Source: an uncultured Rhodospirillaceae bacterium (GTDB lineage: Bacteria; Pseudomonadota; Alphaproteobacteria; RF32; CAG-239). From it: a DNA stretch of 22,623 bases. Below, one piece after another: positions 2,204 through 6,250 of this stretch (its first letter is position 1; the number at the start of each line of letters is the position of its first letter). Where the stretch lies: contig OMQZ01000007.1 of the NCBI GenBank assembly GCA_900313355.1, forward strand, positions 1 through 22,623, given 5' to 3'. A program made the position numbers and the translations under genes. The notes under the pieces are model-generated. The model saw only the letters and a list, made by a program, of their open reading frames with translations. It made no database searches and was not told where the DNA came from.

Positions 2204-2240
2204 GATAAGGTCATTAAAATAAATGAAAAGGAATAAGACA

Positions 2241-2459
2241 ATGACCAAAAATGCTCAGGAAGATTTTTTATCAGATATTAAAGAAAATAAAATTTCCGTG
2301 ACGGTTTTTTTAATCAACGGTGTTAAATTGCAAGGGGTTATTACTTTTTTTGATAATGATGCTTTGCTCTTAAGACGTGATGGACATACACAGCTTGTTT
2401 ATAAACATGCTGTTTCGACGATTATGCCTTCACAAGCTGTTGATGTAGCTGAAAATTAA
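2241..2459 (+). CDS. hfq: RNA chaperone Hfq
   Basis: A hexameric Sm-like protein that binds U-rich and ARN-containing RNA, helps sRNA-mRNA pairing and influences mRNA stability. Seen: Sm1 with [13 protein letters not shown] and Sm2 with [13 protein letters not shown], including the conserved Y-K-H-A segment, and an R-R-D-G turn in the middle. The protein is 72 residues with a very short C-terminal tail, as in many alphaproteobacteria. An in-frame ATG at 2223 would add six residues, but the AAAAGGA ribosome site (about 2226-2232) lies between the two ATGs and fits the 2241 start with good spacing. hflX follows after one base, the classical hfq-hflX pairing. Confidence 0.95.
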
Positions 2460-5080: not shown

Positions 5081-6025
5081 TTATAATCTCCTCTTAATAA
5101 ATAGCCTTTTATATTTTTTAATATTGTTCACTGTTGCTTGCGCAACTCTTGTGCTTTCAATCCATAAACCGTTTGAAAATCCTTTTCCCTCACTTTCTGT
5201 TGCACCTATGATTTCAAATTGTTCTGGGTTATATTTATCCAGAAAAGTTATCGGAACCCCCATCACACCATCATAATCCATCGGGATGTCACTGACTTTA
5301 TCAACATTGATGGCGTCATAATTGTCATATTTGGGATACATATTCTCAAAACCGGTATATTTTTTACCTGTGTCTATGATTTCGTTTCTTCGGCTATTTT
5401 CTAAGTTTGTATACCAACTGACATAGCCAAAGTTTTGAACAGAACCATCAGGTTTTAAAAATTGTTTGACATGATTTAAGCCACACCAAAATTTATTATC
5501 TTTAATTAAAGGGAAAATCTCTTTATAAGTTCGACAATTATCGTTGCCGATAATTAAAAACTTTTTCTTATATTTTATCAGTTGCGCAACATATTCACGG
5601 AATAAAGGGAAAGGAGGATTGGTGATAACAATATCGGCTTGTTTTAATAGTTCCACACATTCTGAGCTTCTAAAATCGCCGTTGCTTTTCATTGGGATTT
5701 CGGCAACATCTTCCAAACAAATAATGCCGTCGCCTGTGTTATCTTTATCTAATATATACATAGAGGAATGCTCTTTGTCTTTTTCATAGTGTGTGGCAAT
5801 CACCTTCTTGATTTGAAAGGCTTCAAAGTTATCTGCCAAATATTTGATAAAATTTGATTTCGGTGTGCCTAAGCCGATGCCATTATGGTCATCACAGTTG
5901 CAATAAATCACTTTATTTTTGAAATATTTAGCGTAATTGACGAGCTCTTTTTTGATGTCTTCATAAAAAGTATAAAATTCAGCATTTTTTGCATCTTTTG
6001 ATCTTTTAAGGCTTTCATTTCCCAT
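5081..6025 (-). CDS. EcoRI-family DNA adenine-N6 methyltransferase
   Basis: Transfers methyl from S-adenosylmethionine to N6 of adenine in DNA, normally protecting the host from a partner nuclease. Seen (numbering from the chosen start): a first strand VIYCNCDD at about 39-46, and the catalytic motif NPPF at 136-139 followed by LFREYVAQL, a signature of the M.EcoRI family. The protein is 314 residues, close to M.EcoRI's size. The start is ATG at 6025 because GGAAGAAG lies just upstream; the frame stays open back to a GTG at 6142, but that extension runs through a terminator-containing leader. It forms an operon with the downstream DUF262-HNH gene. The target site cannot be inferred. The notable oddity is the intrinsic terminator ending 15 bases before the start codon. 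Confidence 0.88.
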   Translation of the reverse strand: MGNESLKRSKDAKNAEFYTFYEDIKKELVNYAKYFKNKVIYCNCDDHNGIGLGTPKSNFIKYLADNFEAFQIKKVIATHYEKDKEHSSMYILDKDNTGDGIICLEDVAEIPMKSNGDFRSSECVELLKQADIVITNPPFPLFREYVAQLIKYKKKFLIIGNDNCRTYKEIFPLIKDNKFWCGLNHVKQFLKPDGSVQNFGYVSWYTNLENSRRNEIIDTGKKYTGFENMYPKYDNYDAINVDKVSDIPMDYDGVMGVPITFLDKYNPEQFEIIGATESEGKGFSNGLWIESTRVAQATVNNIKKYKRLFIKRRL

Positions 6026-6040: not shown

Positions 6041-6067
6041 AAAAAATCGCCTTGGTGTAAAAGGCGA
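6041..6067 (-). terminator. Intrinsic terminator inside the methylase leader (possible attenuator)
   Basis: A perfect 7-bp stem on the minus strand: TCGCCTT (minus, 6067-6061) pairs with AAGGCGA (6053-6047) across a 7-base loop, followed directly by six T (6046-6041). The methylase ATG is at 6025, so a transcript begun upstream would have to pass this signal. Confidence 0.75.
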
Positions 6068-6250
6068 CTGGAAGTAGTACCTACTCATTGGAAGCAGTGG
6101 GCTTATTGATTTAAAGGGAATAGTCCCATTAAACTTATTCACCTCCTTCCAGTCGTTCGACCGGAAGGGGTTTTACGCCAACAGGTGTTGGCAACCAATG
6201 ATGAGGGTACTAACCTCGGGGCAGACACCAACCTGCCTTAAACATAAGGT
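6041..6250 (-). ncRNA. Structured leader RNA upstream of the methylase, attenuator-like
   Basis: Between the ftsZ terminator and the methylase, the minus strand carries a chain of inverted repeats (plus-strand coordinates): CCTTA/TAAGG 6236-6249, GGCAG/CTGCC 6220-6237, GAGG/CCTC 6203-6217, GCCAAC/GTTGGC 6177-6192, a 10-11-bp hairpin 6145-6168, and the terminator 6047-6067. The segment at 6155-6146 (minus, CGACTGGAAG) pairs with CTTCCGGTCG on its 5' side (6167-6158, one G-T pair) or perfectly with CTTCCAGTCG at 6074-6065, which overlaps the terminator's 5' arm; the two pairings are mutually exclusive. GGAGG at 6146-6142 and an 8-codon frame (6129-6103, MGLFPLNQ) could form a leader peptide, but the spacing is long. 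It could be an attenuator or a separate terminated small RNA. I do not recognise a named RNA family, and no strong promoter is visible. Confidence 0.5.

Follow-up and report, generated by a model that had tools for sequence, protein, structure and literature searches.

What sets the expression of the restriction-modification (R-M) genes at this locus? In the window (the whole stretch of DNA analysed, 22,623 nt), an EcoRI-type adenine methyltransferase gene and the gene of its restriction partner follow ftsZ on the minus strand. A preliminary description, made from the DNA letters, had proposed that a short attenuator-like leader in front of the methylase sets both genes by conditional termination.

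The leader in front of the restriction-modification genes

Downstream of the leader lie a methyltransferase and a matching nuclease, as in a Type II R-M pair, an assignment that concerns profile rather than activity. The methylase begins with an ATG at 6025, just past the terminator, and is preceded by a purine-rich ribosome-binding site. The gap from 6041 to 6025 measures ~16 nt, and any promoter located there would have to fit inside it. At two other loci (L084 and L072), several EcoRI-type methylase genes stand in tandem arrays before one GmrSD/HNH nuclease.

Between its own promoter-like site and the methylase, the window contains a structured leader of ~200 nt (about 6240-6041, minus strand; Table 1). 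The leader folds with a z-score of -6.2, and none of 200 dinucleotide shuffles folds as well. Likewise, the arrangement of segments A, B and C with a terminator occurs in 0/2000 mononucleotide shuffles of the 216-nt stretch. The three segments of the preliminary description, CTTCCGGTCG (6167-6158), CGACTGGAAG (6155-6146) and CTTCCAGTCG (6074-6065), are located exactly at these positions of the minus strand, and they pair as proposed, with nine Watson-Crick pairs and one G-U pair among ten in the local A:B pairing and 10/10 pairs in the distal B:C pairing. The terminator said to precede the methylase and to share bases with segment C is also present; specifically, its stem, AGTCGCCTT/AAGGCGATT, occupies 6069-6045 and is followed by a T run, and a terminator scan flags it as terminator-like. 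The element is larger than described, comprising in addition a promoter-like site, a first hairpin, a pseudoknotted hairpin, more hairpins and a second, competing partner (D) for the 3′ end of B. In the window, the pseudoknot pairs at 7/7 positions, and the loops of P0 and of the terminator read TTGGTGT:ACACCAA.

Table 1. Features of the leader and of the surrounding genes in the window (percentages refer to alignment cells paired in the 45-copy set)
Feature	Coordinates	Strand	Basis or remark
ftsZ	8111-6336	minus	Pfam; upstream of leader
Separate terminator-like site behind ftsZ	6329-6301	minus	Terminator scan
Promoter-like site	CTTGCA 6275-6270, TAACCT 6252-6247	minus	Spacer 17 nt; seen by eye, absent from simple scan
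First hairpin P0, loop TTGGTGT 6231-6225	6237-6220	minus	87.5% paired
Hairpin GAGG..CCTC, loop TAGTACC 6212-6206	6217-6203	minus	Loop in pseudoknot with GGTACTA 6081-6075
Hairpin P3	6192-6177	minus	82.4% paired; 6/6 in window
Segment A, 5′ arm of local hairpin (candidate anti-antiterminator)	6170-6158	minus	A:B pairing
Segment B, candidate antiterminator strand common to A, C and D	6155-6142	minus	Alignment pairing
Variable hairpin P5	6133-6110	minus	59% paired; present in window
Hairpin P6 (CTGCT..AGTAG)	6097-6081	minus	95.6% paired; double changes at 4/5 pairs
P2 3′ arm CCAATG, inside P6	6091-6086, pairs with 6200-6195	minus	55.2% paired
Segment C, partner of B (candidate antiterminator) or terminator 5′ arm	6074-6065	minus	B:C pairing
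Intrinsic terminator and U tract, loop ACACCAA 6058-6052	6069-6041	minus	Scan; loop complementary to P0 loop
EcoRI-type adenine methyltransferase	6025-5081	minus	PF13651, E 5.8e-101; PADLOC MTase_II
GmrSD_N + HNH nuclease, restriction partner	5079-3853	minus	PF03235 + PF01844; PADLOC REase_II, E 9.8e-93
hfq	2223-2459		Pfam

Conservation and covariation of the competing pairings

The alternative pairings are conserved and covary. We aligned 130 distinct copies of the RNA, 99 of which are below 85% identity, and from the 130 picked 45 for diversity (set A6), which were aligned with MAFFT without structure. In these 45 copies, where pair counts are inflated by related sequences and corrected in part by the controls, 88.6% of the cells of the OFF structure, which includes A:B and the terminator, are paired, compared with 38-49% when the partners are slid, and the covariation score is 0.480, compared with 0.242 after shuffling. 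For the ON structure, which includes B:C and B:D, 91.2% of the cells are paired, compared with 38-46% after sliding.

The test set beforehand for the proposal was whether the three segments are conserved and covary among homologues, and the segments clearly pass it. In particular, the nine-pair B:C helix is 100% paired in 45/45 copies, with double changes at 4/9 pairs. For A:B, with nine pairs counted, a seven-pair helix is 96.8% paired and a two-pair helix 100%; because G-U pairs are frequent in the middle of the helix, A, though longer, is base for base the weaker partner of B. The terminator, which uses C, covaries and is 93.0% paired. Two mutually exclusive helices, one of them an intrinsic terminator, are thus both conserved, as in an attenuator. 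In the 99 non-redundant copies, B:C is 96% Watson-Crick and shows 94 double-change cells versus 33 in permutations, while the control, in which A is paired with C, does not differ from permutation. The sequence of B itself varies, reading GACTGGAAG in the group of the window and GGCAGGAAG, AGCAGGAAG, GACCGGAAG, GGTAGGAAG or GACTGGGAG elsewhere, with complementarity to C retained.

Other parts of the leader behave in the same way. The 3′ part of B covaries with D (four pairs, 100% paired in the 45 copies), and the pseudoknot between the loop of the GAGG..CCTC hairpin and the bases just 5′ of C is 95.5% paired, with double changes at 6/7 pairs. Conserved unpaired bases outside the helices (e.g. 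AATA and GTAAAA) stand beside the multi-helix domain, as in riboswitches. A contact of the P0 loop with that of the terminator is supported more weakly than the other pairings; the mean longest Watson-Crick match of 4.93 bases, versus 4.11 (maximum 4.32) in 100 permutations, is consistent with such a contact, and the match is three bases or fewer in 17/99 copies (e.g. L170 and L271). Some copies have a broken T run.

In two divergent copies located before EcoRI-type methylases (L034 and L039), the core is replaced and the main architecture is retained, with 7/7 and 10/10 pairs in B:C, 9/9 and 9/9 in the pseudoknot, and 10/10 and 9/9 in P2, respectively. In L039, A:B is weak (6/7), and no B:D partner was found (2/8 in the pairing tried).

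Distribution of the leader

In a DNA search of 153 genomes of the order, which we take to be GTDB RF32, represented by gut and rumen samples, relatives of full or nearly full length turned up in six further genomes (G084, G021, G040, G079, G014 and, in two pieces, G121); the remaining matches were short. A covariance model built from six copies (R1) matches at E <= 0.01 in at least 115/153 genomes of the order, at least 83/109 good genomes and at least 15/17 genera, and the places listed in the order all cover the whole model. The matches sum to 316, a rough count from which strict filters and the scoring of up to 15 candidates per genome lose copies and to which weak antisense echoes may add some. 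Two or more matches occur in 77 of the 115 genomes, with at least 15 in G109 and 13 in G080, and the genome of the window carries the RNA once more (G000:C149), upstream of the gene of a sulfatase-family protein. In a sample of 385 genomes of the class, with five candidates scored in each, at least 19 match. Five of these belong to the order (the genome of the window is one of them), and the other 14, with genome sizes of 0.9-2.1 Mb, represent nine further families.

Among 82 EcoRI-type loci, R1 finds the RNA at four (L034, L036, L038 and L037, which is cut by the contig end), and the contigs of L036, L037 and L038, all with methylase and leader, are labelled Rhodospirillales, Rhodospirillaceae or Alphaproteobacteria. 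By the same model, most EcoRI-type methylases are without the leader, for example in Treponema (L040), in Rickettsiales (L093) and in the same order (L033); L055, which starts inside the gene, lies outside this judgement. Since R1 misses L039, the counts probably understate the size of the family. When the regions in front of 78 methylase loci, that of the window among them, were scanned with a descriptor, there were 16 matches, compared with 15 in 390 shuffled loci; we believe only those in the window, L036, L038 and L039 to be credible, and the match in L039 used a 5′ loop other than the one identified by eye. Phage and plasmid records gave no match apart from one of 38 nt in a plasmid at E 0.2, and viral contigs gave 0 matches to one conserved pattern.

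Promoters and genes adjoining the leader

Promoter-like sites and start codons keep their positions at the two ends of the leader. Specifically, in 69/98 copies the end of the best promoter-like site lies 8-10 nt ahead of the RNA, 58/98 copies have TTGACT or TTGACA, and the promoter score reaches 10/12 or more in 23/98 copies versus 4.6 per 98 shuffles; position is the main evidence for these predicted promoters. Downstream, where ORF starts were sought up to 150 nt away, 128 copies have an ORF, which in 118 of them begins -12 to 40 nt from the end of the RNA; four further copies have none. As in an attenuator, the leader is situated between a promoter, recognised by sequence only, and a start codon.

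The genes behind these start codons are of many kinds. Classified by simple sequence rules, 73/128 first genes encode a pilin-like start, a lipobox or another hydrophobic N-terminus, versus 37/206 other ORFs of the same loci, a contrast that is exaggerated because the mechanically defined control ORFs may include false ones; when the first genes are limited to those of 130 aa or more, as the control ORFs were, the fraction is 66/106. Pfam searches with 40 representatives from most clusters identified outer-membrane barrels, PEGA, several glycosyltransferase families, Stealth, sulfatase, PLD-like, SHOCT, LRR, resolvase and HSDR_N, and 18 of the 40 gave no Pfam match. Frequent first genes are exported, pilin-like, lipoprotein, glycosyltransferase and R-M genes. 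The reading of the preliminary description is supported by the conserved pairings of the switch, with the caveat that the leader is not R-M-specific and is found across the order before many envelope and accessory genes.

One recurrent first gene, present after ten copies that form one BLAST cluster (e.g. L215), encodes a protein of ~80-100 aa of the 'MKEANYGFPGHNVRITE..' type, a representative of which has no Pfam match.

The R-M module and its leader adjoin different genes in different genomes, namely ftsZ in the window, fructose-bisphosphate aldolase in G014 and G021, MscL in G084, and a HAD hydrolase in G040. In G079, the leader is followed by an N6 methylase gene and then by a Methylase_S gene. 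This leader (L006/L283) is 90% identical to that of G084 (L003), while the proteins behind the two are unrelated except for their first residues (MGNENLR versus VGNASLR). Closely similar leaders before unrelated genes suggest capture by recombination, through which the leader seems to have been swapped onto another R-M system.

A probable conditional terminator and its candidate triggers

Taken together with the positions of the promoter-like sites and start codons, the competing pairings make it highly probable that the leader is a cis-acting conditional transcription terminator; real termination, the direction of control and sensing are what we infer from them. In the proposed mechanism, RNA polymerase would start from the promoter at 6275-6247, and B would pair first with A in a local hairpin. 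If A:B holds, C would enter the terminator, and transcription would stop at about 6041, before the methylase (OFF); thermodynamically, this would be the default state. Should A be displaced, B would pair with C, and the 3′ end of B with D, so that the terminator would be blocked and both R-M genes would be transcribed (ON). The 5′ domain (P0, pseudoknot, P3 and P6) would be the likely sensor, deciding whether A keeps B, and kissing of the P0 and terminator loops would make the OFF state more stable.

Nested energy models, which omit pseudoknots and kissing, choose A:B in 90/99 copies, the terminator in 95/99 and B:C in 0/99, and forcing B:C costs a median of 11.9 kcal/mol over the 99 copies and ~20 kcal/mol in the window. 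At face value, this preference implies a default OFF and a trigger for ON. Since B:C is never chosen, the ON state would need help, or else the pseudoknot and the kiss that the models leave out.

The trigger might be a protein or a trans-acting RNA, not a small molecule, that captures A or binds the 5′ domain, in which case the leader would be a protein-dependent attenuator. We put this forward tentatively, as a serious candidate somewhat short of an even chance. Consistent with it, reaching the ON state unaided costs a median of 10-12 kcal/mol, the genes behind the leader have diverse functions, like the targets of a global factor, and hfq is encoded in the same window. Against it, of the 132 genomes of the order with a NusG match, 128 have just one, which argues against a general RfaH/LoaP-like paralogue and disfavours a dedicated NusG paralogue as the trigger; the NusG search misses some, because 21 genomes, some nominally complete, gave no match.

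Instead of acting in cis, the element could yield a free small RNA, ended by its own terminator, that works in trans, and leaky read-through would account for expression of the downstream gene. The promoter-like site of its own, the terminator that covaries family-wide and the conserved terminator loop would all suit such an RNA. However, the close placement of a start codon on the same strand in 118/128 copies, the continued association of leader and R-M pair at differing genomic locations, and the conserved B:C pairing, which would be without obvious use, make this reading improbable.

Attenuation by a leader peptide, in which the fold would depend on a ribosome translating a short ORF, is very improbable. 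The window does have a AAGGAGGT site before an ATG at 6128 that opens an ORF of eight codons (by eye), and 15/99 copies have an eight-codon ORF led by a Shine-Dalgarno sequence; but by a simple rule 67/99 copies have no closed ORF of this kind in the RNA, a common TAATAAG stretch contains stop codons, and no translatable short ORF is conserved among the 99 copies. c-di-GMP riboswitches are known to control surface genes resembling those behind the leader, and the leader could be a diverged riboswitch for c-di-GMP or c-di-AMP, which we consider equally improbable, as a GGDEF match is present in 140/153 genomes of the order, that of the window included, yet all 13 genomes without GGDEF (two of them very incomplete) carry the RNA, in up to eight copies, a DAC match is present in 0/153, and the RNA has no Rfam match. 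Leader-peptide control, c-di-AMP and c-di-GMP made by GGDEF proteins are accordingly disfavoured as triggers.

Comparison with known systems

Rfam searches gave 0 matches in the window at the gathering score. At 20 loci, none fell on the RNA at the gathering threshold, the only matches being tRNAs elsewhere, while in another search sub-threshold matches reached at most 18.9 bits versus thresholds near 45; in a set of five loci, four weak matches were found, all in L161 and outside the RNA.

The leader shares with terminating riboswitches and orphan candidates a multi-helix pseudoknotted domain, an anti-antiterminator, an antiterminator and a terminator, and many copies before different genes. 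It differs from them in that the genes are mixed rather than of one pathway and in that it has no Rfam match. In the cobalamin riboswitch, the kissing contact joins two loops, one in the sensor domain and one in the expression platform, whereas the candidate kissing partner here is the terminator loop itself, again in an RNA without an Rfam match. RfaH and LoaP, factors of processive antitermination, act on surface-polysaccharide and pilus operons through leader sequences; in contrast, the leader would operate by strand exchange at a single terminator, in an order that as a rule has no NusG paralogue. Control by C proteins (controllers) likewise sets R-M expression at transcription, but the interval from the leader to the methylase contains no C gene, and control by the leader would come after initiation.

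The antisense control of EcoRI and Eco29kI, described in the accessible text of two R-M reviews (PMC3874152 and PMC12707154), also regulates Type II R-M systems at the RNA level; it uses reverse promoters and antisense RNA, whereas here a leader on the sense strand would control read-through. In the same portions of these reviews, R-M timing is attributed to antisense RNA, control proteins and translation-limiting hairpins, with no terminator/antiterminator leader; 'riboswitch' occurs 0 times in either, and 'attenuat' one time in PMC3874152 and 0 times in PMC12707154. The available part of a survey of new ncRNAs in 50 genomes (PMC11109978) does not contain the term alphaproteobacteria and proposes a terminator-loop pseudoknot for another motif, and that of PMC7266159 does not contain the terms looked up for the RNA. 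In a literature search of mainly freely accessible papers, the RNA is not named. The leader thus appears to be a large new RNA family, apparently unnamed, with a known kind of mechanism and an unusual set of genes.

The comparative evidence for two states is unusually strong in this family, which is frequent in a little-studied alphaproteobacterial order. Through the leader, envelope variability and DNA defence may come under common control at the level of RNA. A bolder reading is that a new riboswitch-like class, acting as a global RNA switch of these alphaproteobacteria, senses one common signal and, with leaders that number up to 15 or more in a genome, adjusts surface structures (porins, pilins, lipoproteins and glycans) and R-M together; we regard it as less probable than not. 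If it were true, the exposure to phage and host would be governed through one shared terminator switch. The conserved segments lend themselves to direct and cheap mutational tests, and the question of a ligand is approachable.

Paired copies of the RNA occur at two loci. In L272, two tandem copies ~72 nt apart (144-329 and 401-584), each with its own promoter-like stretch and its own terminator, precede a lipoprotein-like gene, and in L245 two copies (30-226 and 401-595) lie on opposite strands within 600 bases.
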